From: Hydrogenovibrio crunogenus
GTDB taxonomy: Bacteria; Pseudomonadota; Gammaproteobacteria; Thiomicrospirales; Thiomicrospiraceae
Direction of reading: 5' to 3'
Assembly: GCF_004786015.1 (NCBI RefSeq)
Contig: NZ_CP032096.1
Span: 1,488,001-1,552,000, forward strand
Length of the DNA: 64,000 nucleotides
Shown: positions 12,099 through 58,309 of the stretch, in pieces
Layout: each line of letters begins with the position of its first letter
Numbering within the stretch: position 1 is the stretch's first letter
Notes under the pieces: model-generated
Database searches by the model: none
What the model was told of the DNA's origin: nothing
Seen by the model: only the letters and a program-made list of their open reading frames with translations
Position numbers and translations under genes: made by a program

Positions 12099-14027
12099 TT
12101 AATACAAACCATTTAAAATTTTTTCAACTTGTCCTATTAAACAATAAACATTCGCCTTATCTTGATAGTCATCGAGCTGTTCCATTTTTTTCACAATCTG
12201 TACCATATTCTCTAAATTAAACAACATCATATTCCCTTTTAAGCGATGAAGTATTTTTCTGACCTCTTCTTCATTGCCAACTTCAACTTCACTTCTCAAA
12301 TGGGCAATTTCATTGAGCGTATTTTCGATAAACTGCGGAATCAGATGCTTTAATTCTTCCGGAATAGTTTGTGCAAAATGGTCAGCCTTGCTCTCCTCCT
12401 CAGAGAACTGCTCGGAACTTTCTTCATGGGTCAAATGCTCTTTACAATTCAACAAATGGATAATCTTATCCTGTGAGGCGGGCTTTTCTAACCATTCATC
12501 AAAAATTGATTTATCGACCTTAATACCTTCTAACTCAACTTCAGCTTCGGTATGAGCTGCGGTCAAAGCAAAAACACCTTTTAACTTTTTCTTTTGATGA
12601 TCCGGTAACGCCCTGATTTTCTGACAGACCTGAATACCATCCAAACCAGGCATTTGGATATCTAAAAACACAAAGTCATAGGAATCTTGCTGAAATTTCT
12701 CCCAGGCCTGGACTCCATCTTTTGCTTGATCAACCGTACAATTCAACTGATGTAGAAAAGTCTCAAGCACTTTGCGGTTAATAACAGAATCATCGGCGAT
12801 CAATACATGAAAATTACATGAGTTCGACAAAACCAATTCTGGAACCGGCTCAACTTGCGGTTGTGATTTTTCTGCTTGAGCACATGTACCGGGCTTCGTT
12901 GGAAGCTTTACAATAAAGGACGTTCCCACCCCTTTAGTTGATTCGACATTGATCGTGCCGCCCATTAAGTCCACTAACGTTTTGACTATCGCCAACCCCA
13001 GTCCGGAACCGATATATTGCATGCTCCCCTTCGATTCAAGCTGCTTAAACGGCTTAAAAATACTGCCCAACTCGGCTTCATCAATGCCTTCTCCTGAATC
13101 GGAAATATGCAATTCAAGCTGTTTGTCGGATCCTTTGATTTCAACAAACACCCCGCCAAATTCAGTGAACTTGATCGCATTCACAATCAAATTCACCAAC
13201 ACTTGCGAGATTCGAACAAGATCACCATAAAAGCAATTGTTTTGACTGTTCAATGAAAATGACACAAAAATGCCTTTTTCAGAAGCAATCGACTTGGTTA
13301 AATGGCTGACATAATCGGCCATTTCATCCAATCTAAACATGGTCGGATTCAATTGAATGCGATTAAACTCTGTTTGAGAGTAAGTCAGAATATCGTTAAT
13401 TAAAAAGTTCAATTGATCAATCGTCAGGCGCATAATCTTCAATTGATCGGAAATCGATTCTTGTTTTAAATAACGGTCTTTGATGATGGAAATCAGACTG
13501 TTCATCCCCATTAATGGCGAACGTAACTCATGACTTAACATCGCTAAAAACTGGGTTTGCTCACTATATTGTTGTTGCAACAATTCGGTTTCTTTTTTTG
13601 CCATTTCTTCTTTGGCTTGAAGTTGGTCAATAATCAACTGACTGTGCGACTCAATCAACTTTTCTTCCAGCTCATGCATTTCAGAGACTTCAAGACAAGT
13701 GGAATAGGCAACGGGGACGCCTTTTTTTTCAGTCAAATTCAACTCATTAATCAGCCAGGTAATTTTCTCTCCCACTTTAAAACCAATTAAAATCCGTTCT
13801 CCAGTTTTAATTTGGTGCCCGGCATTGTTTAACTTATAAATCACCTGATCTCGGCTTTCCGGCACTAAATAAGATAAAAAGGTTTCATAGTCCGTGATTT
13901 CCGAACCGATTTTATCGGCCAAAGCTGGGGATGCCTGGAATCCTTTTTGCTCTTCTGATAGGCTAAAACACCACCACAAACTCTTTTCCAACAACAGCTG
14001 CCCAAGAAACTCTTTATCTAAAACCAT
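12099..14027 (-). CDS. Hybrid sensor histidine kinase with receiver and Hpt domains
   Basis: 642 aa and apparently cytoplasmic, with no membrane helix. Domains in order: PAS-like sensor (about 1-115), coiled coil (110-158), HisKA with FLAMLSHELRSPLMG (phospho-His at 166), HATPase with VNLIVNAIKFTEFGG (N box), DSGEGIDEAELGSIF (G1) and GSGLGLAIVKTL (G2), a receiver with VFLDIQMPGLDG, and a C-terminal Hpt with HRLKGNMMLF. This is a complete four-step phosphorelay ending on the adjacent NarL-type regulator. The layout resembles BarA/ArcB kinases but without a periplasmic sensor. The first ATG is used; 120 bp separate it from divergent fumC. Confidence 0.93.
   Translation of the reverse strand: MVLDKEFLGQLLLEKSLWWCFSLSEEQKGFQASPALADKIGSEITDYETFLSYLVPESRDQVIYKLNNAGHQIKTGERILIGFKVGEKITWLINELNLTEKKGVPVAYSTCLEVSEMHELEEKLIESHSQLIIDQLQAKEEMAKKETELLQQQYSEQTQFLAMLSHELRSPLMGMNSLISIIKDRYLKQESISDQLKIMRLTIDQLNFLINDILTYSQTEFNRIQLNPTMFRLDEMADYVSHLTKSIASEKGIFVSFSLNSQNNCFYGDLVRISQVLVNLIVNAIKFTEFGGVFVEIKGSDKQLELHISDSGEGIDEAELGSIFKPFKQLESKGSMQYIGSGLGLAIVKTLVDLMGGTINVESTKGVGTSFIVKLPTKPGTCAQAEKSQPQVEPVPELVLSNSCNFHVLIADDSVINRKVLETFLHQLNCTVDQAKDGVQAWEKFQQDSYDFVFLDIQMPGLDGIQVCQKIRALPDHQKKKLKGVFALTAAHTEAEVELEGIKVDKSIFDEWLEKPASQDKIIHLLNCKEHLTHEESSEQFSEEESKADHFAQTIPEELKHLIPQFIENTLNEIAHLRSEVEVGNEEEVRKILHRLKGNMMLFNLENMVQIVKKMEQLDDYQDKANVYCLIGQVEKILNGLY
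12702..12711. repeat. CCAGGCCTGG palindrome, copy 4 (in the hybrid kinase)
   Basis: Perfect copy in the receiver domain of the hybrid kinase gene, read as Gln-Ala-Trp. Confidence 0.9.
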
Positions 14028-17683: not shown

Positions 17684-18559
17684 TTGAAAACGACGCTTCT
17701 ACGCTATCAAAAACGAGTAAATCAAAAACTCGAAGCCTTATTGAACCGGCAAAAAAACATCCCCTCTTCATTGTTCGAAGCCATCAAATATTCGACTTTA
17801 AATAATGGCAAACGATTGCGCCCTGCTTTGGTTTATGCGGTTGGTGAAAACTTAGACATTCCACTGGATAAACTGGATGCCGCTGCGTGCGCCGTTGAAC
17901 TGATTCATAGCTATTCGTTAGTACACGACGATTTACCTGCGATGGACGACGACGATTTAAGACGAGGACAACCGACTTGCCACATTCAATTCGATGAAGC
18001 AACGGCCATTTTGGTTGGTGATGCGCAGCAAACCTTAGCGTTTGAAACATTAAGCCAAGACCCTTTTTTAACCGAATCCGATAAAGTCAAACTCATTACT
18101 CTTCTTTGCCAGGCCAGTGGCGGTGCCGGAATGATTGGTGGTCAAATCATTGATATCCAGTCTAATGGGCACTTACCGGAACTATCTCAACTTCAAGCCA
18201 TGCATGAAATGAAAACGGGGGCTCTTATCACCGCTTCATTACTGATGGGCGCAGCCCAATCGACACACTACCCTGAAAAACAGCCAGGCCTGGCAAAACT
18301 AGGACAAAAAATCGGCCTCGCCTTCCAAATACACGATGACATTCTCGATATTGAAAGCAGTACTGAAGTGCTAGGAAAACCACAGGGGAGCGACGAAGCC
18401 GCAGATAAGTCCACCTATCCAAAACTGCTCGGAACCGCACAAGCAAAAGCATTGCGTGATGAACTAATAGAAGACTCACTGGAAAGCTTATCCGCTTTGC
18501 AGTTGGCTAATCCCTTCTTAAAAGAACTCATTGGTTACATCGCCTGCCGCCAACATTAA
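17684..18559 (+). CDS. ispA: Farnesyl diphosphate synthase (polyprenyl synthetase)
   Basis: Condenses isopentenyl and dimethylallyl diphosphates to C15. The first Asp-rich motif is in HDDLPAMDDDDLRRGQPTCH and the second in FQIHDDILDIE; NNGKRLRPALVYA binds diphosphate. The length of 291 aa and the short side chains before the first Asp motif fit a short-chain synthase. The only reasonable start is TTG at 17684, because in-frame ATG codons come too late; the ribosome-binding site is poor. One CCAGGCCTGG copy is inside. dxs is not next to it here. Confidence 0.94.
   Translation: MKTTLLRYQKRVNQKLEALLNRQKNIPSSLFEAIKYSTLNNGKRLRPALVYAVGENLDIPLDKLDAAACAVELIHSYSLVHDDLPAMDDDDLRRGQPTCHIQFDEATAILVGDAQQTLAFETLSQDPFLTESDKVKLITLLCQASGGAGMIGGQIIDIQSNGHLPELSQLQAMHEMKTGALITASLLMGAAQSTHYPEKQPGLAKLGQKIGLAFQIHDDILDIESSTEVLGKPQGSDEAADKSTYPKLLGTAQAKALRDELIEDSLESLSALQLANPFLKELIGYIACRQH
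18284..18293. repeat. CCAGGCCTGG palindrome, copy 5 (in ispA)
   Basis: Perfect copy within ispA, extended to GCCAGGCCTGGC, read as Pro-Gly-Leu. Confidence 0.9.
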
Positions 18560-24495: not shown

Positions 24496-25464
24496 TTAGA
24501 AGTGTGCAAACCCAAGTGACTGTAAACTTGTCTGACCTTGAGGGGTATTTTTTAACTGTATCCCTCCCTCGCCAGTGACAATTTGCCCGATTTCAGTCAA
24601 TGAAATCTCTAGCTCTTCGGCAAGCTCATGAATGGTTATTTGATTATCAGGGTGAATGGTAAAACACAGCTCATAATCATCCCCCGCAATCAATGGTAAC
24701 GACCAATCATTAGATTGCTGGATATAGGTTTGCATACAGTTAGAAACTGGAACCGATTTCACATCGACCCATGCACCGACTTGTGATGATGACAGAATAT
24801 GCTTTAAGTCGGCCAGCAGTCCATCAGACACATCAATGGCACTGGTTGCGAGTCCTTTAAGATAATATCCAAGCGTCACCTGTGGGGTAGGTTTGTTCAG
24901 CTGTTGTATGGCTGAGGCATAAGAAGCTTTATCCCAATGCTGCTGAACGGCTTTTAATCCAAGCCCCCCCTCTCCCAGAACCCCTGAAACATAAATCAAA
25001 TCGCCCGGTTTCGCTCCTTTTCGTAAAATAGCATGTCCGCTTTCAACCCAGCCTTGTGCTGTAATCGTGATGGTTAAACGATCAGAGCGCGTGGTATCCC
25101 CTCCTATCAAAGGAATATTATATAAATTGGCTAACTGCTTGAGTCCACCGGCAAACATTTCCAGCCAGGCCTGGTTATTTTTCTCTGATGGCAAACTGAG
25201 TGCCAATGAATAAAAGGCCGGCGTTGCGCCCATCGCCGCTAAATCACTCAAATTGACGGCCAATGCTTTCCAAGCAATATCACAAGCAGATGTTTCAACC
25301 GGGAAATGCACCCCTTCTATAAGCGTATCTGTCACCACTACCAGCTGCTTTCCGGCCTGGCAAGACAGCACCGCACCATCATCTCCAATTCCAATTTCAT
25401 CGGCCGATGCAACGCTAGATAAAGGCTTAAAAAAAGTATCAATCACATCAAATTCGTGTGCCAT
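24496..25464 (-). CDS. thiL: Thiamine-monophosphate kinase ThiL
   Basis: Phosphorylates thiamine monophosphate to the diphosphate. The AIR-synthase fold is visible as IGDDGAVL, VTDTLIEGVHF, AVNLSDLAAMGATP, LIGGDTTRS and AIDVSDGLLADL. The longer open frame starts 17 codons upstream, but the family begins at MAHEFDVIDTFF, so I take the ATG at 25462-25464 with AAAGAG before it (322 aa). Last gene of the nrdR-rib-nusB-thiL run, separated from nusB by a hairpin that may lower its expression. One CCAGGCCTGG copy is inside. Confidence 0.94.
   Translation of the reverse strand: MAHEFDVIDTFFKPLSSVASADEIGIGDDGAVLSCQAGKQLVVVTDTLIEGVHFPVETSACDIAWKALAVNLSDLAAMGATPAFYSLALSLPSEKNNQAWLEMFAGGLKQLANLYNIPLIGGDTTRSDRLTITITAQGWVESGHAILRKGAKPGDLIYVSGVLGEGGLGLKAVQQHWDKASYASAIQQLNKPTPQVTLGYYLKGLATSAIDVSDGLLADLKHILSSSQVGAWVDVKSVPVSNCMQTYIQQSNDWSLPLIAGDDYELCFTIHPDNQITIHELAEELEISLTEIGQIVTGEGGIQLKNTPQGQTSLQSLGFAHF
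25165..25174. repeat. CCAGGCCTGG palindrome, copy 6 (in thiL)
   Basis: Perfect copy in thiL, read as Gln-Ala-Trp. Confidence 0.9.
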
Positions 25465-35832: not shown

Positions 35833-36309
35833 ATGGCAAAGAAAAAAAAGCAAAACAATCCAAACAGTATCGCTCAAAATAAAAAAGCGCGTTTCGACTA
35901 TTTTATTGAAGAAACCTTTGAAGCAGGCTTGGCACTTGAAGGCTGGGAAGTTAAAAGTCTCCGCCAAGGTAAAGTGCAAATCAATGAAAGCTATATTTTG
36001 CTGAAAAACAATGAGGCCTGGCTTTTTGGTGCACTGATTACGCCGTTGATTACAGCCTCTACACACGCTAACCATGACCCATTAAGACTCCGAAAACTCT
36101 TGATGCATCGAAAAGAAATCGATCGTTTAATCGGATTAGTCGATCAAAAAGGATTTACTGTCGTTCCATTAGACCTTCACTGGAGTAGAGGTAAAGTCAA
36201 AATCTCTATTGGTTTAGCGAAAGGTAAAAAACTTCACGACAAGCGTGCAACTCAAAAAGAACGTGACTGGAATCGTGATAAACAACGCATTATGAAGTAC
36301 CACGCATAA
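35833..36309 (+). CDS. smpB: SsrA-binding protein SmpB
   Basis: 158 aa OB-fold protein that carries tmRNA to stalled ribosomes. Motifs [39 protein letters not shown], and the basic tail [20 protein letters not shown]. Encoded 133 bp upstream of its partner RNA ssrA. Confidence 0.97.
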
Positions 36310-36388
36310 TTTTTTAAAGCTTCGCTCTTGAAAAATTCGTAACCACCCCCAATAAACGTTATAATGAAAACATAAATTTTGTGGTACA

Positions 36389-36416
36389 TAAAATTGACCA
36401 GGCCTGGTCAATTTTA
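36389..36416. repeat. 28-bp perfect palindrome between smpB and ssrA, centred on CCAGGCCTGG
   Basis: The arms from 36389 to 36402 are exactly mirrored by 36403 to 36416 (TAAAATTGACCAGG and its complement). It lies 27 bp upstream of the mature tmRNA 5' end. It has a T-rich 3' arm, so it could terminate smpB, or it could be a protein site in the ssrA promoter. Its core is the motif repeated through the window. Confidence 0.9.
36398..36407. repeat. CCAGGCCTGG palindrome, copy 7 (intergenic)
   Basis: Perfect copy at the centre of the 28-bp palindrome upstream of ssrA. It is the only intergenic copy. Confidence 0.9.
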
Positions 36417-36442
36417 CCGTAGCAACCATGAGAACCGAATAC

Positions 36443-36799
36443 GGGGATGCACTGGTTTCGACGGGGAGTACAAAGTTTAGGATGCATGTCGTGCCTGAAT
36501 GATGCACGTAAATCTTTATTTCAATTTGTTATAGTTGCAAACGACGATAACTACGCTCTAGCGGCTTAATCCCGCTAGCGCAGACTGGGAGCGTTGTTCG
36601 TGGCACCCAGTTCTGTGTCGACTCACACGGAATCGTCGGTCTCATGTGTTTGGATGAGGCTTGACTAAACTTTACAAGCTCGCTTAATGTGATCCCTGCT
36701 GGTCGGGCAGCATTAAGTTAAAATAATAGACCAAATAAACATGTAGAGCTTTAAATGGAGGCTTCTCGGACGGCGGTTCGACTCCGCCCATCTCCACCA
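36443..36799 (+). ncRNA. ssrA: Transfer-messenger RNA (tmRNA)
   Basis: Rescues stalled ribosomes with SmpB. The 5' end GGGGATGCACTGGTTTCGAC and the 3' end GGTTCGACTCCGCCCATC followed by TCCACCA form the tRNA-like acceptor stem (GGGGATG with CATCTCC, one G-U pair) and T arm. The tag reading frame at 36537-36569 encodes ANDDNYALAA then TAA, close to the E. coli ANDENYALAA. One-piece tmRNA of about 357 nt. Its 3' end is the probable attachment site of the following integrase-bearing element. Confidence 0.97.
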
Positions 36800-36808
36800 T
36801 ACAGAACA

Positions 36809-36848
36809 CATAAGCCATTGTTTTTAATACGAAATTCAATGGCTCATG
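36809..36848 (+). terminator. Hairpin just downstream of ssrA
   Basis: CATAAGCCATTG (36809-36820) and CAATGGCTCATG (36837-36848) pair over 11 of 12 positions. The loop contains a T run. It could be the tmRNA terminator or a recombination structure at the left edge of the element. Confidence 0.5.
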
Positions 36849-36954
36849 TACCACCGTAGTACCTATCAAATAGTCCTTATTTTTCCTCTTTTTTCCGTGA
36901 CATTCGTCAAATTAATGAACTACACTTGTACCACAAGTTAAATAATTTAAAACC

Positions 36955-38157
36955 GTGGTACATTTTATGATCAACAAACTTTCAGATGTGCAGATAAGAA
37001 AGGCTGTTCACCCTTCTACTAAGAGTCTGTCTGATGGTAAAGGTCTTAGCATTGAAATTATGCCAAAGGCGAAACGATTCAAGTTCAGATACCAGCGACC
37101 AGTGAACAAAAAAATAAATAACCTTGTCTTAGGTTACTATCCTAGTATGTCATTAAAAGCTGCTAGAGAAATAGCACAGCAATATCGAGAGCTTTTAAAG
37201 AAAGGCATTGACCCAAAATATCAAACATCATCAGAAAAGGTTGATTTCGATCACATTATCCAGCTTTATTTAAAAAAAGGAAAAGCCGACTGGTCAGAAA
37301 AACATTTCAACACTACAAAAGGTCGATATGAAAATTTCCTTAAAAATCCTTTTGGTAATAGAGATGCAGCCCAAATTACTTCTTTTGATATATATAACTT
37401 ACTGGAATCAGTAGCACAATCAGGAAGCTATGGAACCGCAGAAAAGTTAAGCTATATAATTTCTGGCGCATACTCCCAGGCTGCAATACTTGGAATGGTA
37501 AAATTCAATCCTGCGGCTGGAGTTATGAAACAGGTGACTAAGACCAAAAAAACTCAACAAATGCCACACTTTAACCTTACTCGCAAAGGTGAATCAGAAA
37601 GGCTTGGAAGGTTTTTAAATGATATTAAAGCACTCAATAAAACAAATATTGCAGTCAAGACAGCATTGCTTTTATCTCCCCTACTCTTTATGCGTTCGGG
37701 CTCTCTCGCATCTTTAAAACTAGAATCCTATGACAAGGATAATAAATGGCTTTTGATTAATGCAGAAGATATGAAAAAAGACCACTCTGACTTTATCGTT
37801 CCTTTAAGCACGCAAGCTATAAACCTCCTTGAAACACTTATTGCCGCCACAAAACCTAAAATTTATGTATTTGAGAGCAGAGCAAGTAAGCTTGGACACA
37901 TAAGAATAGAGGCCATTAACAAAGCAAAATCACGATCTGGATGGCGGTTTGATGACGTGACGATACACGGATTAAGACATACAGCAACAACATATTTAAC
38001 TGAAATTGGCTTTGATTACGAAGTTACAGAAATGCAACTTCACCATAAACTTGTTGGTGTGCGGGGAATATACAATAAAGCAATGCATCTGGATAAACGC
38101 AGAGAAATGATGCAAAAATGGGCAGATTATTTGGATAATTTGAGAAACGGCATATAA
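36955..38157 (+). CDS. Tyrosine recombinase, P4-type integrase at the tmRNA site
   Basis: 400 aa. The N-terminal arm-binding domain (DUF4102 type) shows LSDVQIRKAVHPSTKSLSDG and NNLVLGYYPSMSLKAAREIA. A SAM-like core-binding domain follows, then the catalytic domain with Arg in LLFMRSGSLASLKLE, HGLRHTATTYLTE (H-x-x-R) and the nucleophile Tyr in VRGIYNKAMH. The box II His position reads LHHKL instead of LGH, a mild deviation. The frame opens at GTG 36955; ATG 36967 is equally possible, and neither has a good binding site. Immediately 3' of ssrA, as expected for a genomic island or satellite integrase. Confidence 0.93.
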   Translation: MVHFMINKLSDVQIRKAVHPSTKSLSDGKGLSIEIMPKAKRFKFRYQRPVNKKINNLVLGYYPSMSLKAAREIAQQYRELLKKGIDPKYQTSSEKVDFDHIIQLYLKKGKADWSEKHFNTTKGRYENFLKNPFGNRDAAQITSFDIYNLLESVAQSGSYGTAEKLSYIISGAYSQAAILGMVKFNPAAGVMKQVTKTKKTQQMPHFNLTRKGESERLGRFLNDIKALNKTNIAVKTALLLSPLLFMRSGSLASLKLESYDKDNKWLLINAEDMKKDHSDFIVPLSTQAINLLETLIAATKPKIYVFESRASKLGHIRIEAINKAKSRSGWRFDDVTIHGLRHTATTYLTEIGFDYEVTEMQLHHKLVGVRGIYNKAMHLDKRREMMQKWADYLDNLRNGI

Positions 38158-38329
38158 TATTTTTGTCTAAAACAATATTTAACAACTACAGAACTACGGG
38201 CTTATTAGGGTAAGTTTTTAATCACACTCAGAATCTCAAAAAAACTTGGCCACTAAAGTTCATTTTTTATAAAAGCAACACGAACAATCAATGTATTAGT
38301 AATTAATATCAACTTTGTGGAGTAAAAAT

Positions 38330-38443
38330 ATGATCATGTTTTTCTATACCTCTCTAGTCGTCATTTGCATTATTGGTTGCGTTTATTTGCTTGGCAAAGC
38401 AATTGATTCTTATGAGGCAAATATTAAAAAAGATACTCACTGA
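38330..38443 (+). CDS. 37-residue single-span membrane peptide
   Basis: ATG at 38330 with GGAG seven bases before it. The peptide begins MIMFFYTSLVVICIIG and then VYLLGKAID, one hydrophobic helix followed by a charged tail (SYEANIKKDTH). The good binding site and membrane-like composition argue for a real gene. Function unknown. It lies between the integrase and the insertion sequences. The 240 bp after it show no gene. Confidence 0.5.
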   Translation: MIMFFYTSLVVICIIGCVYLLGKAIDSYEANIKKDTH

Positions 38444-38780
38444 ATACCTCCCATTTATTAAGTTTTCTAACCCTTCCCAATCTTTTTCTAAAGTGACGTT
38501 TAGCTCCATAAATAAAAATTTTTATAGACGTCAAACCAAATCAACAAAACTAATAATCAGCGATGCCAACAAAGGGGTTCGTAATTCTTATGTAATGCAC
38601 CCCAATACTTCTTGCGCGACTATAAAAACAATACCAACATATTGATTTTATATGTTTTTTATAAAAAACTTATTTTAAAACTTGCTTAACAAAAAAAATT
38701 GCCATTATCTGCCGTAATACTATATACAGGCTTACCAAGAGATTTAAATTGTTCAATAATGACTGATGCCACCATATTTG

Positions 38781-40097
38781 GGGCCTGTAAACCAAATTGT
38801 GTAAACGCTCATAGTTTAAAATTCCCCGAAAAGGAAAATCACTATGAGCAACATCGACCAAGAAAAACTCAAAGCCATGGCCGCTGAGCTGGCCAAGGAT
38901 ATCAAAACTCAGAGCGACTTGTCTGACCTCTCAGCCAGTCTGCTTAAAATGACCGTTGAAGCCGCCCTCGGTGCTGAAATGGAAGAGCACCTGGGCTATC
39001 CCAAGCACCACAGTTCCGACAGCGACAACAGCCGAAACGGCTATTCATTTAAAACCCTCAAAGGCGACCATGGCGAAGTGGAAATCGCCATCCCTCGGGA
39101 TCGCCAGAGTGAGTTTAACCCCACCATTATCAAAAAAGGCGAAACCCGCCTGACCAGCATGGATGACCAGATACTGGCGCTTTATGCCAAAGGCATGACC
39201 ACCCGAGACATTGTGGCAACGTTCAAAGAGATGTATGGCGCTGATGTCTCGCCAACACTGATCTCCAAGGTCACCGAAGCGGTCATGGAAAAAGTCACCC
39301 TCTGGCGTTCTCGTCCGTTGGACGAAGTCTATCCGCTGCTGTATCTCGATGGTATTGTCATCAAGGTCCGCCAGGACAAACAGGTGGTGCGAAAAACCAT
39401 GTATGTAGCGCTTGGCGTCAATACCGACGGCCAAAAAGAATGCCTGGGCCTGTGGCTGTCTGAGACCGAGTCATCCAAGTTCTGGTTGAGCGTTTTAAAC
39501 GACCTTGAAGCCCGAGGCGTCAAGGACATACTGGTCGCAAGCGTTGATGGCCTGACGGGCTTTCCTGAGGCCATCAATACCGTCTACCCTCAGGCAGATG
39601 TTCAACTTTGCATTGTGCACATGGTGCGCAATTCCCTGCGTTATGTTGGCTACAAAGAGCGCAAACAGGTCGCCAACGACCTCAAACAGGTTTACCAGTC
39701 AGTGACCGAAGAAGAAGCTCTGTTGGCGCTTGAGCAGTTCGAGACCAAATGGGATGACAAATTCCCCAATATCGGTCGTTCCTGGCGCAACAACTGGGAC
39801 AATGTGGCCACGCTGTTCCAGTACCCTCAGGCGATCCGCAAGGTGATCTATACGACGAATGCGATTGAATCTTTGAACTCGGTGATTCGCAAAGCCACCA
39901 AGAATCGCAAGATCTTCAGCCATGATAACTCGGCCTTTAAAATCATTTTTCTGGCCATTGAATCGGCCTCAAAAAAATGGACCATGCCGATTCGAGACTG
40001 GAAATTAGCCATGAACCAGTTTATGATTCTGCATGAAGAACGCTTGAAACCTTATGTTTGATCAACCGAGCGTTTACACAGAATTATTTACAGGCTC
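38781..40097 (+). mobile_element. Complete IS256-family insertion sequence
   Basis: 1317 bp with ~30-bp imperfect terminal inverted repeats. The left end starts GGGCCTGTAAA and ends TGTGTAAACGCTC; the right end read inward is GAGCCTGTAAA...TGTGTAAACGCTC. It is flanked by a 9-bp target duplication CCATATTTG (38772-38780 and 40098-40106), within the size range of IS256 elements. It landed inside an IS30 transposase gene. Its GC content is visibly higher than the flanks, suggesting recent arrival. Confidence 0.93.
38844..40061 (+). CDS. IS256-family (Mutator-type) transposase
   Basis: 405 aa, intact. DDE transposase with YPLLYLDGIVIKVRQ (first Asp), VASVDGLTGFPEAI (second Asp), QLCIVHMVRNSL and the signature YTTNAIESLNSVIRK with the catalytic Glu. 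The N-terminal EMEEHLGYPKH and RNGYSFKTLKGDHGEVEI are also family-typical. AAAGGAAAA precedes the ATG. It is likely functional. Confidence 0.96.
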   Translation: MSNIDQEKLKAMAAELAKDIKTQSDLSDLSASLLKMTVEAALGAEMEEHLGYPKHHSSDSDNSRNGYSFKTLKGDHGEVEIAIPRDRQSEFNPTIIKKGETRLTSMDDQILALYAKGMTTRDIVATFKEMYGADVSPTLISKVTEAVMEKVTLWRSRPLDEVYPLLYLDGIVIKVRQDKQVVRKTMYVALGVNTDGQKECLGLWLSETESSKFWLSVLNDLEARGVKDILVASVDGLTGFPEAINTVYPQADVQLCIVHMVRNSLRYVGYKERKQVANDLKQVYQSVTEEEALLALEQFETKWDDKFPNIGRSWRNNWDNVATLFQYPQAIRKVIYTTNAIESLNSVIRKATKNRKIFSHDNSAFKIIFLAIESASKKWTMPIRDWKLAMNQFMILHEERLKPYV

Positions 40098-40806
40098 CCA
40101 TATTTGATTTACGTGTTTCCACCTTTATAAACTGTGAAAGTCGAGAAACCCTATCAACCATTGAGACTAGGCTTGGTCCTGTTTTTATCCCAATGACCGT
40201 ATCAACCTTCCAATCACCAATGCGTTGTCTAACATCAACGATACTTGGACGTTCATCTATACTGGTTCCTTTATTCAACTTACCACGCGTTTCATAAACC
40301 CGATCACGTTTTCGATAACGTTTTTTACGGCATAGATAGCGGTACAAGGGCCACCTCTTGCTTTGTTCTGATAGATGAATTGGTAAATCCATTCATGGCT
40401 TATTGAAATGCTTGATTCTATTTTTAGGCGGCCACTTATCTGCTCAGGGCTCCAGTTGCTTTTAAGGTTCTTAGATACTTTGTGCCAGACGGACTGAGAA
40501 ATGCGTTTACACGCTTTATTGCGTTTTCTAGCACATGCTAATTGGTGAGCGAGCATTGGCCGCCAACCACGCTTGTTAACATTACGTTAAATTCTCGGCT
40601 TATCGTAAATTTATGGCGAGTAATCTCTTTGGCAATAGCACTAATTGACAAACCTGTGCGTTTCAGACCATAAGAGTGATATCGTTCTGTTTCGGTTAGC
40701 TGATGATATTTGTTCATGTAACAACACTTTTAGGTTGGGGAACTGAAAAGGTAGCTCATTAGCTAACCTTTTTCCATTCCTCGGTGTTGCACTTGCTTGT
40801 TGAATC

Positions 40807-50908: not shown

Positions 50909-53794
50909 TCACTCAGGCGCACCATCAATAAAGGTTTTGATGTAATCCAACATTTGATCCAATACGCGTTGTGAAACGCTCTTTCGTTTCAAGATCTTCG
51001 GCTTTTTATTCATGGTTTCCACCACATCATCACGATACGGTAGTTTCTCAGTAAATAGATAGCTGGAAATCAGCTTCTGGACTTTTTCCTGATCAAGGTT
51101 TTCTTCTTCACAGATACGCTTGATTGCGGTCTGATCTTGCTCTTTCCAGAATTGTTTGAAGTGCTCTTCTACCTGTCCACCGTTTTGAATCTCTGGCAGA
51201 TTTTCATGGATGAACTTTTCAATCAGTTCTTTTTTAGAACGCATGCCCACATCTCCCGAAAGCATATCGATAATGTTTTTCTTACGGGCTTCGTGTTCTT
51301 TTTCAGGGGCATCTTTCAGCTGTCCCAGTAGTTTCAAGATGTAGGTCACATTGATTTCATCTCGATGAATCAATTCTAGTTCAAAGTCCACATCATTCAG
51401 GATGGAAACCTTTTCTTTTTGACGGTCATTTTTAATGCTGTCATGAAGGTCAAGATACTTGCTGCCATAGTCGGCATATTCCTGTTCATCAATGGCTAAA
51501 TCTTCAAATTCAAAATCGGTAAAGGTGGCCAAAACGTTATAGACACGCATAAGCTCTCGATAAGCCTTGATGAAATTAAACTTGTCTTCTTCTGACGCCA
51601 AATCATTCACACTCGCCACATCAGGCGCAATACTTCTTAGCGCTTCCAAAGCCTTATTAAATTGCTCAACGTAGTTTTCATAAGGCTCCATGATAATGGT
51701 GTCTTTGGCGTTCTTGTCCGAGAACAGACCAATCGCATCATCGGTGGCTTGCTTAAGGTTTCGGAAACAGACAATGTTCCCTTGGGATTTTTTATCGCCC
51801 ATAATGCGATTCGTGCGGGAAAATGCTTGAATCAATCCATGGTATTTCAGGTTTTTATCGACATACAAAGTATTCAAAGGTTTGGAATCAAACCCGGTCA
51901 GGAACATATTCACCACCAGCAAAATATCCACTTGCTTATCTCGAACACGCTTAGCCAGTTCGTTGTAGTAGTTATAGAACGACCTGGAATCTTTGGTGGT
52001 GTATTTGGTGCCAAACATGTCATTATAGTCACCAATGTAAGATTCGAGCTTATCACGACTATGCAGGTTGACCGTCTTGCCACTCATGTCAGTGGTTTCT
52101 TCTGGAATACTGTCGTCCGCGTCTTTATCATCTTCATTGGCGGCATAACTGAATATCGTCGCCACTTTCAGATTGTGCTCGCCCGCCTCTTTTTTGACTT
52201 TAAACAAATCATAGTAACGTGTCAGCGTCTCCACCGAACTGACACACATCATTCCGGTAAACTCTTTGGCATGGGTTTTACGCTCGTGGTTGGCAATAAT
52301 GTAATCCACAATCGCTTCAATGCGCTGTGGCGACTCCATAACCTCTTTGGTATCGATGTCTTGTACTTCAAGGTCTTGAACAATATCGTGCTGCTTAAAG
52401 GTGCTGATGTATTCCACCGAGAACTTCAGCACGTTCTCATCCCGTATCGCATCGGTAATCACATACTTGTGCAAACATTCACCAAACAAATCTCTGGTGG
52501 TCCGTTTGCCCAGTTTATTGCTGGCCACGTTTTCCGCGAAGATGGGCGTACCGGTAAAGCCGAACATTTGATAATGGTTGAAGTACTCGGTGATGCGTTG
52601 ATGCGTTTCCCCAAACTGACTGCGATGGCACTCGTCAAAAATAAAGATCACATGCTTATCTTTCAGCGGCTCCATGGCCGACTTGTAACGCTCTTTCATA
52701 ATCGCCGTATTCAGCTTTTGAATCGTCGTCACAATCAGCTTGGTATCATCTCCAAACTGTTTTACCAGTTTTTGGGTGTTGTCGGTGCTGTCCACACTGC
52801 CTTCGCTGAACGAGTTAAATTCTTTGGCAGTTTGATAATCCAGGTCTTTACGATCCACACAGAACACAACTTTATCGACATTCGGCAGGTTGGTGAGGAT
52901 TTGACTGGATTTAAATGAGGTCAGCGTTTTACCCGACCCCGTAGTGTGCCAGATATAGCCATTATGAACCGAGTTTTTCACCTTATCAATAATCGCTTCC
53001 ACCGCGTAAAATTGATAAGGGCGTAACACCATCAGGATTTTATCGGTTTGGTTTAAGACAATGTATTTGGTAATCATCTTCGACAGATGACACTTTTCTA
53101 AAAAGCTCTTGGCAAAGCTTTCTAGCTGGGTAATCGCCTTATTGTCTTTATCCGACCAGAAGAACGTCTGTTTAAAGGACTGTTTGCGATTGTTGGCGTA
53201 ATACTTGGTATTCACCCCATTACTAATCACAAACAATTGGATGTATTGAAACAACCCTGCACCCGCACCGAATGAGTGACGCTGATAACGATTGGTCTGG
53301 TTAAAAGCTTCTTTAAGCTCTAACCCTCGGCGTTTTAATTCAATCTGAACCAACGGCAAACCGTTAATCAAAATCGTCACGTCATAACGGTTTTTATACT
53401 CGCCTTCCATTGTGATTTGATTGGTCACCTGGTACTGGTTTTGACACCACTCAATCTGGTCGATGAAATCGATATACAGCGTCGAGTCATCATCACGCTT
53501 TAAGTTGAACTTGTCTCGAAGGGTTTCCGCACGTTCAAAGACATTGCCTTTGTTTAAATGGTTGAGGATTTTGCTGAATTCGTTATCTGAAAAAACCGTT
53601 TTATTATGTTTTTCTAGTTGGCGTTTGAGGTTGGCTAACAGGTCGGTCTCGTTTTCAATCACAACGCGCTCATAGCCTTGGCTGGCTAACTGTGCGATTA
53701 GATTGTTTTCCAACTGCGCTTCAGATTGAAGCTGGCCGGAAAAATAAACCCCTTGTGCGTCAGCTACTTTATTTGTCATATCAACTAACTCCAA
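50909..53794 (-). CDS. hsdR: Type I restriction enzyme, R (translocase/nuclease) subunit HsdR
   Basis: 961 aa. The N-terminal nuclease domain has YDVTILINGLPLVQIELKRR (D...ExK) and EAFNQTNRYQRHSF. The SF2 helicase motor follows: YIWHTTGSGKTLTSF (Walker A), FIFDECHRSQFGE (DECH box), FGFTGTPIF, LLVVNMFLTGFDSK and GLIQAFSRTNR. It cleaves unmodified DNA after translocation, with HsdM and HsdS. Its start overlaps the NYN gene stop by 10 bp. An open frame of 418 codons on the opposite strand is a shadow. Confidence 0.96.
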   Translation of the reverse strand: MELVDMTNKVADAQGVYFSGQLQSEAQLENNLIAQLASQGYERVVIENETDLLANLKRQLEKHNKTVFSDNEFSKILNHLNKGNVFERAETLRDKFNLKRDDDSTLYIDFIDQIEWCQNQYQVTNQITMEGEYKNRYDVTILINGLPLVQIELKRRGLELKEAFNQTNRYQRHSFGAGAGLFQYIQLFVISNGVNTKYYANNRKQSFKQTFFWSDKDNKAITQLESFAKSFLEKCHLSKMITKYIVLNQTDKILMVLRPYQFYAVEAIIDKVKNSVHNGYIWHTTGSGKTLTSFKSSQILTNLPNVDKVVFCVDRKDLDYQTAKEFNSFSEGSVDSTDNTQKLVKQFGDDTKLIVTTIQKLNTAIMKERYKSAMEPLKDKHVIFIFDECHRSQFGETHQRITEYFNHYQMFGFTGTPIFAENVASNKLGKRTTRDLFGECLHKYVITDAIRDENVLKFSVEYISTFKQHDIVQDLEVQDIDTKEVMESPQRIEAIVDYIIANHERKTHAKEFTGMMCVSSVETLTRYYDLFKVKKEAGEHNLKVATIFSYAANEDDKDADDSIPEETTDMSGKTVNLHSRDKLESYIGDYNDMFGTKYTTKDSRSFYNYYNELAKRVRDKQVDILLVVNMFLTGFDSKPLNTLYVDKNLKYHGLIQAFSRTNRIMGDKKSQGNIVCFRNLKQATDDAIGLFSDKNAKDTIIMEPYENYVEQFNKALEALRSIAPDVASVNDLASEEDKFNFIKAYRELMRVYNVLATFTDFEFEDLAIDEQEYADYGSKYLDLHDSIKNDRQKEKVSILNDVDFELELIHRDEINVTYILKLLGQLKDAPEKEHEARKKNIIDMLSGDVGMRSKKELIEKFIHENLPEIQNGGQVEEHFKQFWKEQDQTAIKRICEEENLDQEKVQKLISSYLFTEKLPYRDDVVETMNKKPKILKRKSVSQRVLDQMLDYIKTFIDGAPE

Positions 53795-54447
53795 ACATCA
53801 GGCTTTGTTATCGAAGTATTTGGGATTTTTAGCGGCAATTGTGAAGCCGTCAAATGAGATTCTTTTATAAACTTATGCCAATCAGAAAGTTCCAGCAAAT
53901 CTTTGGAAACATGCCGCCTATTCCCACTTTTTACTGGAGAAACCAACCCAATACGTATTTCAGGCTTAATGGATTTTATACGTTTCAAGGCTGGCTCTAA
54001 ATCGGAGTCATTAGTACATAAAACAATTTGTTCACATTGACCAGATAACGCATCGCACGCTATATCAACGGCTAAATTAACATCGCTTTTCTTTTCCTCA
54101 AAATGATGCACTTTCACCTTATCAAAAGGTTCATCTACCCTTCTTTTCACAGGCGTTGTCGCAATCATTTTGCCTTCAATGATAGATACTTGATGGGGAT
54201 ACCGTTTTCGCAGTGCTTGCAGATATTGTCTTTGTCGTTGAACGGAGTTTGGATCATCACACATTCTTCCCAAGACAGGTGCCGTGTAATATTTAAGATG
54301 AATAAGTTCAGATTCTTGAGGATTAAGTATTTCAACCTGAAATAGAGAATGAATATCTAACCACTTAAATTCGGTTTTTCTCAATAACCCGTAATATAAG
54401 TTATACCCATCAATATAGACAATCGTTTTTAAGATTTTAATAGACAT
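53785..54447 (-). CDS. NYN-domain (LabA/DUF88-type) putative RNase
   Basis: 220 aa PIN-like fold: TIVYIDGYNLYYGLLRK (first Asp and Asn), KKSDVNLAVDIACDAL and VLCTNDSDLEPALKRI provide the acidic metal-binding residues. Such proteins are predicted metal-dependent RNases, some in defence loci. Being inside the hsd operon and overlapping hsdR suggests it works with, or guards, the restriction system (inference). Confidence 0.88.
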   Translation of the reverse strand: MSIKILKTIVYIDGYNLYYGLLRKTEFKWLDIHSLFQVEILNPQESELIHLKYYTAPVLGRMCDDPNSVQRQRQYLQALRKRYPHQVSIIEGKMIATTPVKRRVDEPFDKVKVHHFEEKKSDVNLAVDIACDALSGQCEQIVLCTNDSDLEPALKRIKSIKPEIRIGLVSPVKSGNRRHVSKDLLELSDWHKFIKESHLTASQLPLKIPNTSITKPDVWS

Positions 54448-54464
54448 TTCAATACTCTATAAAT

Positions 54465-54491
54465 GACAAAGCCACCCGAAGGTGGCTTGTC
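54465..54491. terminator. Hairpin upstream of the NYN gene
   Basis: GACAAAGCCACC pairs with GGTGGCTTGTC around CGAA, with one bulged A. Located between the Abi-like gene and the NYN-hsdR pair, it could reduce read-through to hsdR. Confidence 0.65.
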
Positions 54492-54626
54492 TCCTTAAGA
54501 GCGAACAAGCTAAACTTGACGGTCATAAGGGCTGTTAAAACTAATTATACCCGAAATAACAATTTTGTAAACACCGCAGACTAATCAAATTCATTCATTA
54601 ATCGAATTAAAGGATGGTCTGTTTTT

Positions 54627-54720
54627 CACACAAACATCTTTTGTTATAAGTCTTGTTTAAAGACTCTGTTTGTTCTAAATTGACCAGGCTTGGTAGTTTT
54701 TGCTTAAGCAATTTAATCTG
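54627..54720 (-). pseudogene. Decayed second copy of the hsdS 3' end
   Basis: 54627-54693 matches the last ~70 bp of hsdS (55549-55617) with scattered substitutions and small gaps, starting with the identical CACACAAACATCTT that covers its stop codon. On the minus strand it still reads LVNLEQTESLNK, comparable with the hsdS end NQAWSILEQTKAFKKG. Even the palindrome is preserved with one change (CCAGGCTTGG). It is no longer part of any open frame. Confidence 0.8.
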
Positions 54721-54739
54721 ACTCTTTATGGTTTTGAAA

Positions 54740-55540
54740 TTATTTTGCTTGGTTACAGGCATTTATTAGAACTTGATTATTTCCATAAGCCAAAGGTTTG
54801 AAAAAACCTAATTCTGTCTGCCAATTATATAAACACTGTTCATCTAGCGCTTCAAACAACGCAAAACTTTCTACAAGTTCAGTAATATGTGCCAAATTTT
54901 CAGCATGTACATAATAGAAAAATAATACCAATTCAAATTTTGAAAGCTGTGAGTGAAGTAAATTTAAAGCGAACTCTCTGTCTTCAGCTTCAAGGAGTTC
55001 TTTGTTTTGTTTCATTAGAATTAAAATGTTTTTAATTATCTCCAAAAATCTTAACTCCTTACGAACAAGATGTAACTCGAGGTTTATTTTTGTGTGTTCA
55101 GGATCTGCATTTTTTATTTTTGGATTTATATGATTATTTTCATCCGAAAAGGTTATTCCTGCGTTTTTAAACGTATCAAGAAAATAAGATATTGCTTCTA
55201 CACCACTATGTTTTTGCTCACCATAATGAAATGTAAAATCCTCAACAGCATTTTTGTGTAAATTGACTAATTGAAATAAACAAGATTGAAACCTATCTAA
55301 ACGAGAGTTTTTTTGGAGTGCCTCTATTTGTTTTTGTTGTAGAAAAATTGTCTTTAAGAGTACGACAAAAGCCACCCCTGAAAACAAAGCACTTAACATC
55401 CCATAGCTGCCACCTAACTGCGCAGCCTTTTCAACTGAAAAATCATTAATGGGCCATGTTACAAACACAATTGCTATACCAAAAAAAATTATTAGCAACA
55501 CAACAAAAGGGATGAATAACCATAAACTTATATTTTTCAT
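54740..55540 (-). CDS. Putative abortive-infection membrane protein (putAbiC-like)
   Basis: 266 aa from ATG 55540; a TTG five codons upstream would overlap the hsdS stop. Two N-terminal membrane helices (LWLFIPFVVLLIIFFGIAI; GGSYGMLSALFSGVAFVVLL), a short coiled coil (QKQIEALQKN) and a helical cytoplasmic domain with FQSCLFQLVNLHKNAVEDF and LFFYYVHAENL. The layout matches the putative phage abortive infection family PF16872, assigned by memory only. It lies directly after hsdS in the operon. Confidence 0.65.
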   Translation of the reverse strand: MKNISLWLFIPFVVLLIIFFGIAIVFVTWPINDFSVEKAAQLGGSYGMLSALFSGVAFVVLLKTIFLQQKQIEALQKNSRLDRFQSCLFQLVNLHKNAVEDFTFHYGEQKHSGVEAISYFLDTFKNAGITFSDENNHINPKIKNADPEHTKINLELHLVRKELRFLEIIKNILILMKQNKELLEAEDREFALNLLHSQLSKFELVLFFYYVHAENLAHITELVESFALFEALDEQCLYNWQTELGFFKPLAYGNNQVLINACNQAK

Positions 55541-55547
55541 CTGCAAC

Positions 55548-56741
55548 TCACACAAACATCTTCTGCAATAAGCCTTTTTTGAAGGCTTTGGTTTGCTCTA
55601 GGATTGACCAGGCCTGGTTAATTTTTTGGTCGATTTCGGTTAGGAAATTGGCGATTTTTTGTTGTTCTTCAACACACGGAAATAAACCAAATATCTTTTC
55701 AATTTCTTTTTTACTAATCTCTGGGAATGTTGAGCCACTCGCTTTTCTAACAAATAACTTTCGATTTTGGATTATCCAGTAATAAACAAATTCATTATTA
55801 TTCTCTTCATTTACCACTATTGACTGGAAGCCCTGATTAGTTGCACATTCTCGGGTCGAAATTGCTATATCAGCAATAGTTGCTCTGGTCGTTAGAAGCA
55901 AAGTCCCTTTAGGGAGAATTTTTGCCGATGACTTCTTTAACCCCTCATTTGAAATAGAGCGAACACTAAAGCCCATGTATTTTTGTTTGATTTCTGTTGG
56001 TGTAAACCACTGTATATCACCATTCCAATATTCTGCTTTCGTCGTTTCGGGCGTACCGCCTCCTATGATAGCCCCCAACTTAGCTATACTTTTCCTATCC
56101 CACTCAGGATAGTCATTGCCATTGTCGTCTTTAAAGCGGATTTGTTGGCTGAAGACTTGTTGCATGACACCTTTTTTGTAGTCGGTGAGCAGGCGGTGTT
56201 TTTCGGTGAGCTGTTCGATTTTTTTGTCCACCAAACTTAAAAAATCAGCGATTTTTTGTTGTTCTTCCTTGGAAGGGATACATAACTTCAGGTTTTTTAC
56301 AATTTTTGCTGATAAATTACCTTGTCCGCCTTGCAAGTATGTCTTTAATATTCTTGGCTTATTTTTTATGAGCCAGTCTTTTAGGAAAATTTTATTTTCT
56401 TGTGTCCTAATGCATAATACAGCCTGATTTATAGCTCCATTTAGCTTTGAAATAGCCACTTCACCGCTAGTTGCACCATATAGCGCATATAGAAGGTCTC
56501 CAGTTTCTACTAGCTTTGCAGATGAACCATTCAAAGCATCTTCCGTTATGAATTGGTCAACTGAATCGGAACCAATTTTCCCCGAGCCAATAAATGGAAT
56601 ATTACCTTCATATAAATTTTTGTTGGTACTTGTTGGCGTACCTCCTGAAAAAAAGTTTCCTAACTCCCCAACTTGCTTTTTACTCCAAGCCTCAGAAAAC
56701 TCAGAAAATCTAAGTTCAGGCACAATCTTAACTTCACTCAT
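55548..56741 (-). CDS. hsdS: Type I restriction specificity subunit HsdS
   Basis: 397 aa with two target-recognition domains, each starting from the GGTP motif (NFFSGGTPTST and AIIGGGTPETT). They are separated by the central conserved helix IADFLSLVDKKIEQLTEKHR and closed by the C-terminal IANFLTEIDQKINQAWSILE. Sets the bipartite recognition sequence. Its ATG overlaps the hsdM stop by 1 bp. The 3' end carries a CCAGGCCTGG copy and has a decayed duplicate 0.9 kb downstream. Confidence 0.95.
   Translation of the reverse strand: MSEVKIVPELRFSEFSEAWSKKQVGELGNFFSGGTPTSTNKNLYEGNIPFIGSGKIGSDSVDQFITEDALNGSSAKLVETGDLLYALYGATSGEVAISKLNGAINQAVLCIRTQENKIFLKDWLIKNKPRILKTYLQGGQGNLSAKIVKNLKLCIPSKEEQQKIADFLSLVDKKIEQLTEKHRLLTDYKKGVMQQVFSQQIRFKDDNGNDYPEWDRKSIAKLGAIIGGGTPETTKAEYWNGDIQWFTPTEIKQKYMGFSVRSISNEGLKKSSAKILPKGTLLLTTRATIADIAISTRECATNQGFQSIVVNEENNNEFVYYWIIQNRKLFVRKASGSTFPEISKKEIEKIFGLFPCVEEQQKIANFLTEIDQKINQAWSILEQTKAFKKGLLQKMFV
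55608..55617. repeat. CCAGGCCTGG palindrome, copy 8 (in hsdS)
   Basis: Perfect copy near the hsdS 3' end, read as Gln-Ala-Trp. The surrounding ATTGACCAGGCCTGGT is shared with the intergenic copy at ssrA. Confidence 0.9.
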
Positions 56742-58309
56742 TAAAACGGCGCCTCAATTCCAAGCTGTTTACAGTAATCGGCAATCACCGCATCGGTCTG
56801 TTGCATCTCTTTATCAATGACTTTGATTTGTTGCGTCACCGCCGTTAAATCAATCGGCTCTTCTTCCTCGAAGGTATCCACGTATCTTGGAATATTGAGG
56901 TTGTAGTCGTTTTCTTTAATTTCATCGAGTGAGGCGACATAACTGTATTTATCACAGGTTTCTCGGTTGTGATAGGTGGAGACAATTTTCTCGATATGCT
57001 CAGGCTTTAAAGTATTCTGGTTTTTGTTTTTTTCAAACTCATTGGAGGCATCAATAAACAGAATGTCGTCAGGATTAGTCCGGCATTTTTTAAACACCAA
57101 AATACAGGTGGGAATACTGGTGCCATAGAAGATATTGGCAGGTAAACCAATGACCGCATCCAGATAGTTGCGGTCTTCAATCAGGTATTGGCGGATATGG
57201 CCTTCTGCCGCGCCACGAAATAACACGCCATGCGGTAATACCACTGCCATAGTGCCGTTATCGGCCAAGTGGTGAATCATGTGTTGGACAAAGGCAAAAT
57301 CGGCTTTGGTTTTGGGCGCGAGTTTGCCGTATTGTGAAAAACGGTCATCACTTAAAAACAGTGGGTTCGCTGACCAGTGTGCCGAGAACGGTGGGTTGGC
57401 GACAATGGCTTCGAACTGTTGGCCTAGGTGATGCGGGTGCTCCAGCGTATCGTCCTGGCTGATGTCGAACTGCTTGTAGTTCACATCATGCAAAATCATA
57501 TTCATGCGCGCCAAGTTGTAGGTGGTTCGGTTAAGCTCTTGGCCATAAAAATGACCGACTTCTTTGACTTCTTTCGACACCCGTAACAACAATGACCCTG
57601 ACCCGCAGGTTGGATCATACACAGACTTTAAGTAGTTTTTATCGTCGGTGACGAGTTTAGCGAGAATGGTGGAGACGGTTTGCGGGGTATAAAACTCTCC
57701 GGCTTTTTTACCGGCACCGGAGGCAAACTGTCCAATCAAGTATTCATAAGAATCCCCTAACACATCGGCATTGGCGTTTTCCAGCTGAAAATCGACCTTA
57801 TCCAAGTGCAAAAGGATTTTAGACACCAGCTCATTTTTTTGCTTTTCGGTTTTACCCAGCTTGCTAGAGTTAAGATCGAGGTCTTCAAACAATTTATTGA
57901 AGTCGTCCTCGGACTCGGTGCCCATGGTGGATTGTTCAATATTGTTAAGAATGGTTTGAAGCTCACCCAGAATAAAGTTGTCAGTGGATTCGCCCTCAAT
58001 CGCCGCGCCTTTTTTGGCAATGGCTGAGAACAGCTCGGAAGGCTTTAGAGTGTAACCGAGTTTTTCAATCGCTTCATCGGCCACCGCCGCTACGATTTCA
58101 GCGCCTTCTTCAGAATGCTCATCGACTGTGGCGTAATCAAAATCGTCTTCTAGGGTATTGGCGTAAAGGCAAAGTTTTTCAGAGAGGTATTTGTAAAAGA
58201 TAAACCCTAAAATGTAATCCCGAAATTCATCGGCATCCATTTTGCCACGCAAGGCGTTGGCGATATTCCATAATTGTTGTTCGAGTAACTTTTTTTCTTC
58301 TTCTGACAT
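56741..58309 (-). CDS. hsdM: Type I restriction-modification methyltransferase subunit HsdM
   Basis: 522 aa N6-adenine methyltransferase. Helical N-terminal domain (QLWNIANALRGKMDADEFRD), SAM motif VYDPTCGSGSLLLRV near residue 235 and catalytic NPPF in EAIVANPPFSAHW. First gene of the operon. The 5' region is AT-rich and shows no clear promoter by eye. Confidence 0.97.
   Translation of the reverse strand: MSEEEKKLLEQQLWNIANALRGKMDADEFRDYILGFIFYKYLSEKLCLYANTLEDDFDYATVDEHSEEGAEIVAAVADEAIEKLGYTLKPSELFSAIAKKGAAIEGESTDNFILGELQTILNNIEQSTMGTESEDDFNKLFEDLDLNSSKLGKTEKQKNELVSKILLHLDKVDFQLENANADVLGDSYEYLIGQFASGAGKKAGEFYTPQTVSTILAKLVTDDKNYLKSVYDPTCGSGSLLLRVSKEVKEVGHFYGQELNRTTYNLARMNMILHDVNYKQFDISQDDTLEHPHHLGQQFEAIVANPPFSAHWSANPLFLSDDRFSQYGKLAPKTKADFAFVQHMIHHLADNGTMAVVLPHGVLFRGAAEGHIRQYLIEDRNYLDAVIGLPANIFYGTSIPTCILVFKKCRTNPDDILFIDASNEFEKNKNQNTLKPEHIEKIVSTYHNRETCDKYSYVASLDEIKENDYNLNIPRYVDTFEEEEPIDLTAVTQQIKVIDKEMQQTDAVIADYCKQLGIEAPF

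Follow-up and report, generated by a model that had tools for sequence, protein, structure and literature searches.

The window, i.e. the whole 64,000-nucleotide stretch of Hydrogenovibrio crunogenus DNA that was analysed, carries smpB (35833–36309) and, further along the same plus strand, the tmRNA gene ssrA (36443–36799), which encodes the tag ANDDNYALAA. The tmRNA gene was identified by its match to Rfam family RF00023 (198.3 bits), and the Rfam search of the region returned tmRNA alone. Between the two genes, at 36389–36416 and without an assigned strand, lies TAAAATTGACCAGGCCTGGTCAATTTTA. An earlier note made from the letters of this DNA had described it as a perfect 14+14 palindrome, and the 28 bp are indeed fully self-complementary. 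There is no longer perfect palindrome in the window, where the runners-up have arms of 8 bases, and from base composition about 0.0003 such 14+14 palindromes are expected per 64 kb. The palindrome contains the core word CCAGGCCTGG (36398–36407, no strand), and its 3′ edge stands 26 nt from the 5′ end of the tmRNA at 36443. It had been proposed to lie where the promoter should be. A TATAAT box at 36360–36365 on the plus strand stands upstream of it instead, and a sigma-70-type consensus scan reported no plus-strand promoter site here. We read this box as the presumed −10 element of ssrA, with no −35 element assigned, because the same box is present at the same place in relatives. The palindrome would then sit in the tmRNA leader, with a conserved TATAAT-like box on its 5′ side and the tmRNA on its 3′ side.

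The closest relatives of smpB among named records came from a Piscirickettsiaceae MAG (90% identity) and Hydrogenovibrio sp. SC-1 (88%), followed by Thiomicrorhabdus and others. A plasmid search with the whole smpB–ssrA region gave no close match, 80% coverage being reached in 0 of 13 records. Downstream of ssrA, at 36955–40556, a phage-type integrase starts 156 bp past the ssrA 3′ end, and beyond it come a transposase of the Mutator family and short ORFs resembling transposases. This arrangement resembles islands inserting at ssrA; the last 13 or more bases of ssrA are not duplicated anywhere in the 64-kb window to give an attachment site.

The palindrome had also been taken for a copy of an iterated motif, and the counts bear this out beyond chance. 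The H. crunogenus genome (G000; 2,453,259 bp) holds 367 copies of CCAGGCCTGG, about 150 per Mb, and 0 copies of the reversed-letter control. Within the window there are 8 exact copies, and 13 copies with at most one mismatch compared with a mean of 0.74 and a maximum of 3 in 100 shuffles. Besides the one at ssrA, the motif count placed exact copies, none with an assigned strand, at 20–29, 7272–7281, 11615–11624, 12702–12711, 18284–18293, 25165–25174 and 55608–55617. The last of these has ATTGA and T-tract flanks and corresponds to the ATTGACCAGGCCTGGT that the earlier note had seen recurring at the end of hsdS; it falls inside a minus-strand ORF (55548–56741) that matches Methylase_S. The type I restriction-modification genes hsdR, hsdS and hsdM extend over 50909–58309 on the minus strand. 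Word counts were taken from unmasked runs, since a repeat-masked k-mer run loses true copies, which share 18-mers. Long repeats fill many of the k-mer lists of H. crunogenus, and long GC-rich repeats dominate those of G010 (L174–L178), G018 (L201–L204) and G066 (L197–L200).

We then compared the word among relatives. Counts of CCAGGCCTGG over 62 genomes of the family are bimodal: 27 genomes have 106–856 copies and 35 have 0–44. Both classes occur within the genus, where 7 of 11 genomes are high-count and 4 have 0 or 1 copy. In 21 genomes from other families of the class there were 0–35 copies, and backwards controls gave 0–13. Dialects were sampled in 18 genomes, 80–160 kb each. Seven of these carry CCAGGCCTGG (G000, G002, G013, G015, G026, G033 and G066), G015 mainly in a one-base-variant form. 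Another seven, all low-count, iterate a different word, in some cases a non-palindromic one: CCCAGCCTGG(C/T)AGATTTT in G004, CCCAACCTGG(C/T)AGATTTT in G001 and G010, ACCGGCCGGT in G031, AACAGGCCGGGT in G029, and ACAGGCCTG/GCAGGCCTG in G021 and G025, where the inner CAGGCCTG is common to the main word. No word was found in the 80–100 kb sampled from each of G016, G018, G058 and G064, G058 having about three copies of ACCGGCCGGT. The dialects are sharply delimited for CCCARCCTGGYAG, which occurs 314, 331 and 376 times in G004, G010 and G001, all members of the genus, and 0 or 1 times in the other 59 of the 62 genomes. Mixed words were seen in G015 (L237–L240), with 36 copies of GCAGGCCTG per 100 kb beside 11 of CCAGGCCTGG, and in G033 (L233–L236), with 14 copies of ACAGGCCTG beside 24 of CCAGGCCTGG; these may be genomes between dialects. 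To judge from these counts, the word characterises a genome as a whole and switches between relatives.

Column profiles gave a common architecture for many of these words. The H. crunogenus profile is AAAAac..CCAGGCCTGG..gtTTTT, and G002 and G013 are alike. Profiles of G004, G001 and G010 are one-sided, CCTGG(C/T)AGATTTT, as is that of G029. A GC core with an AT-rich tract is clear in these seven genomes; the tracts are weak in G031, G021 and G025, and G026 and G066 have longer cores and no clear tracts. A palindromic word may be regarded as a head-to-head pair of half-sites, each CCTGG, 4–5 bases and a T-tract, and a directional word as a single half-site. The 28-bp palindrome represents the complete two-sided form of the word.

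A GC-rich palindromic core in hundreds of copies within and between genes recalls HIP1 of cyanobacteria, an iterated palindrome for which others are substituted in some relatives (PMC4390886). Likewise, a DNA methylase together with methylation-linked mismatch repair might create and maintain the word, and alternative HIPs might take its place in relatives; two C5 methylases are present in H. crunogenus. In the account of PMC4390886, however, the extensions of HIP1 all keep the palindrome, whereas here the word is palindromic in H. crunogenus and others and directional in G001, G004, G010 and G029. The T-tracts are a further difference, and the density lies below the 500–2500 per Mb given in PMC4390886. 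Nor do the two methylase families searched across the genomes at E 1e-10 track the word. PF00145 was found in 23 and PF01555 in 19 of the 62 genomes, and 14 of the 27 high-count genomes have neither (G005, G006, G007, G009, G013, G019, G026, G055, G059, G060, G061, G062, G067 and G072), with D12/Dam, HsdM and other methylases outside this cross-genome search. An origin of the HIP1 type is disfavoured because the two families are absent from these 14 genomes and because directional dialects exist. This weakens the methylase-driven reading, which we consider unlikely. The C5 methylase genes of H. crunogenus form a divergent pair at G000:C1:420028–422498 (L134, L147), and most high-count relatives are without them.

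Next, we analysed how the copies are distributed and how closely they keep to the consensus. Across 12 genomes the density of the word was 2.5- to 24-fold higher in intergenic than in coding DNA, a split that rests on mechanically called ORFs. Close spacing is avoided: among the first 100 copies in H. crunogenus, 0 of 99 gaps were shorter than 1 kb compared with 13 expected, and 0 of 5000 random sets were as low, while among the first 64 copies in G005, 4 of 63 gaps were that short compared with 12.7 expected (P 0.0006). Spacing was relatively even in both genomes measured. Perfect copies outnumber one-mismatch copies 38:16 in H. crunogenus. The ratio was 1.0–6.0 in 11 of the 12 dialect genomes counted, a set that left out G021 and G025, compared with 0.033 by chance; it exceeded 2 in 9 of them and was 1.0–1.1 in G001 and G029 and 0.32 in G015. 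Even spacing and palindromic form would suit a dimeric protein, and a protein that organises the nucleoid or segregates chromosomes, with species-specific preference, might bind the word all over the chromosome; the even spacing of the uptake signal sequence (USS) was once read in this way (Karlin, cited in PMC1939737). An excess of perfect over one-mismatch copies is, however, unlike relaxed protein sites (PMC1626085). The directional relatives also speak against such a protein, 4 of the 5 stretches sampled from G004 containing copies of both orientations, as do the T-tract extension and the use of the word in terminators described below. We regard this explanation as quite improbable.

To see what happens at ssrA in relatives, we searched 58 genomes for tmRNA, which scored over the cut-off in 54, and examined the stretch upstream in 46, leaving out the other 12. 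Eight of the 11 genomes of the genus have a perfect word of their own dialect 39–60 nt 5′ of the tmRNA; G002 and G009 have their own word with one mismatch, and no word was recognised in G008. The earlier note had made its proposals depend on conservation in relatives, and the answer is divided: within the genus, 10 of 11 genomes retain the word, but the full palindrome is not conserved. Three different words occupy the site within the genus. In all ten genomes with the word, a TATAAT or TAGAAT box stands at −71 to −102 and the word lies downstream of it. By simple arithmetic (367 copies in 2.45 Mb), the word is expected in a given 60-base stretch about 1% of the time; the eight perfect copies are not eight independent events, because the genomes are related. 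Three named records (L009, L010 and L017) have the same core beginning 39 nt 5′ of the tmRNA, with different flanks. Outside the genus, ssrA leaders are mostly without the word. The genome's own word lies upstream of tmRNA in G060, G021, G025, G029 and G031, and G056, whose dialect was outside the sampling, has ACAGGCCTG there. A perfect copy is present at ssrA in 6 of 25 high-count genomes examined, 5 of these 6 within the genus. In G030 (L109) a hairpin around AAGCAGGCCTGCTT, a variant core, lies further upstream of the tmRNA in a terminator-like place.

An alignment of the ten genomes showed which part of the site is retained. The columns of the right half, CCTGG and T-tract, are invariant or nearly so (columns 15–19, 24 and 26 invariant), while columns 1–9 are not. 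This shared half corresponds to 36403–36415 on the plus strand in the window. The word as aligned at ssrA is better conserved than the hairpin. A regulator site belonging to ssrA alone, as had been suggested, does not fit a word that stands at hundreds of other places and at ssrA follows each relative's own genome-wide word. We rejected it as the main reading. The idea that the ssrA copy is the founding and best-preserved form was likewise rejected. In a sample of 38 H. crunogenus copies (the window plus 160 kb), 4 copies including the one at ssrA have arms of at least 14 bases, and one has arms of 17.

The same sample showed that arm length depends on location: arms of at least 12 bases were found in 6 of 13 intergenic copies compared with 0 of 25 copies in ORFs. 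The five long-arm copies outside the window start 21–36 nt past a stop codon and have T-runs of 5–7, and 4 of the 5 lie between convergent genes. Similarly, in G002, 8 of 9 copies with arms of at least 11 bases are within 41 nt of a stop. Directional words can form close inverted pairs that are terminator-like; we found two such pairs in G004, two in G010, one clear pair in G029 and none in G001. From their sequence, many intergenic copies with complementary arms look like intrinsic terminators.

Could the ssrA copy itself act as an RNA hairpin, whether by terminating smpB, by attenuation or as a signal for processing within the tmRNA leader? The resemblance of long-arm copies elsewhere to terminators would favour this, and the presumed H. 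crunogenus leader folds better than its shuffles (z −3.78). Across seven palindromic relatives, 79.8% of cells of a 12-pair hairpin can pair, a figure that none of 500 shuffles reached, and double changes affect 6 of the 12 pairs, which 2 of 500 shuffles equalled. When three directional relatives were added, pairing was 69.2% compared with 28–43% in slid versions. However, part of this pairing is to be expected of a genome-wide word with A- and T-tracts, and the shuffle and slide controls ignore that. Leader folding is less clear in relatives, with z of −0.45 (G001), −0.71 (G006), −1.17 (G010), −2.02 (G002), −2.04 (G004) and −2.50 (G007), and the directional relatives lose the left arm yet keep CCTGG and the T-tract. 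The earlier suggestion of a terminator for smpB was rejected as the main reading. A terminator scan of 36250–36850 gave 0 sites, the T-run is 4, and the core begins 88 nt past the smpB stop; the copy falls outside the intrinsic-terminator pattern, in which a GC stem and a U-rich tail lie close to the end of a gene. Placed beyond the presumed promoter, a terminator would, moreover, halt ssrA itself. A functional hairpin at ssrA is, in our view, very unlikely. The hairpin there is probably a by-product, although the pairing statistics lean partly towards a hairpin and some selection on it may operate in palindromic species.

We favour, with some reserve, the view that the palindrome belongs to the copies of a DNA-uptake word specific to the species, part of a system comparable to USS in Pasteurellaceae or DUS in Neisseriaceae, families in which uptake sequences are described (PMC7811141, PMC1939737). 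This view is suggested because the word matches USS in having a core with an AT-tract and a strong consensus, in being enriched between genes and avoiding close spacing, and in forming terminators and dialects. From these features we infer a receptor, uptake and an evolutionary drive. A DNA receptor would bind the half-site and favour import of DNA bearing the word, which would be propagated and maintained as the imported self DNA recombined. A shift in receptor preference could then carry an entire genome over to another dialect. The H. crunogenus word would be palindromic because two CCTGG half-sites, each with its T-tract 4–5 bases on, meet head to head, and intergenic copies with complementary arms would form hairpins. 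The ssrA copy would sit in a permissive leader between the presumed promoter and the mature tmRNA end. RNase P is expected to remove the leader 5′ of that end.

Several observations count against an uptake word. Its density in H. crunogenus is well below the value of about one per kb for the uptake word of H. influenzae (PMC7811141). An unusually strong consensus is named as an attribute common to USS and DUS (PMC1626085), and the consensus is not strong in G015 and yields ratios of only about 1 in G001 and G029. In addition, no word was found in 4 of the 18 sampled genomes, the ssrA leaders outside the genus mostly lack it, and a change of word among relatives is known from HIPs as well (PMC4390886). 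PMC1939737 describes known uptake words as non-palindromic, and a palindromic one would depart from those described there.

Genes for DNA import were searched for in the same genomes. ComEC is present in 56 of the 62 family genomes and scores over the equivalog cut-off in H. crunogenus; it is also present in genomes in which no word was found, e.g. G018, G058 and G064. A PilT-family ATPase was over the cut-off in both genomes tested, H. crunogenus and G004, and the PilB-like ATPases of these two genomes were below it and have an MshE-type domain. The secretion-ATPase family has 3–6 members in each of the 8 genomes looked at. GspH was found in 3 of 62 genomes and PilM in 1 of 62, the latter a weak test in which the E. 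coli control was also unmatched. The receptor pilin ComP_DUS (PF16732) exceeded the cut-off in 0 of 62 genomes, with one weak match in G018; a Neisseria-type receptor was not found. For the Pasteurellaceae, the USS receptor is described as a prediction (PMC12616744). DNA-import parts thus exist, and the pilus machinery is only partly shown.

The likeness to described uptake words extends to several features. The USS of Pasteurellaceae also combines a short GC core with AT-rich tracts and has more perfect than one-mismatch copies (PMC1626085), and it comprises two words in two subclades with genic and intergenic copies (PMC1626085, PMC1939737). The word described here is unrelated to it, palindromic in many species and several times sparser, and its uptake role is a candidate one. 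Closely related Neisseriaceae differ in DUS dialect, and inverted DUS pairs are tied to terminators (PMC3630211); here, in contrast, there is another word, with palindromic forms, and no genome has ComP_DUS over the cut-off. The TerminatorNet survey likewise reports uptake words inside intrinsic terminators, naming Neisseriaceae and Pasteurellaceae (PMC13020248), whereas here a single palindromic copy can make a hairpin.

Whether the Hydrogenovibrio/Thiomicrospira/Thiomicrorhabdus group as a whole has an uptake-sequence system of its own seems to us an evenly balanced matter. Such a system would have at least five dialects, some of them fused half-site palindromes that are readable either way and can be terminators alone, others a single half, CCTGG with its T-tract. 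Our search of the open-access literature, with subscription papers and preprints outside its scope, found no such uptake-word system. An uptake word predicts transformability with DNA bearing the right word. If the reading is true, the word switches inside one genus, so that the receptor change could be mapped, and an independent system in sulfur-oxidising bacteria, its palindromic and directional dialects existing within one genus, would provide a natural series in which to trace what determines the word.
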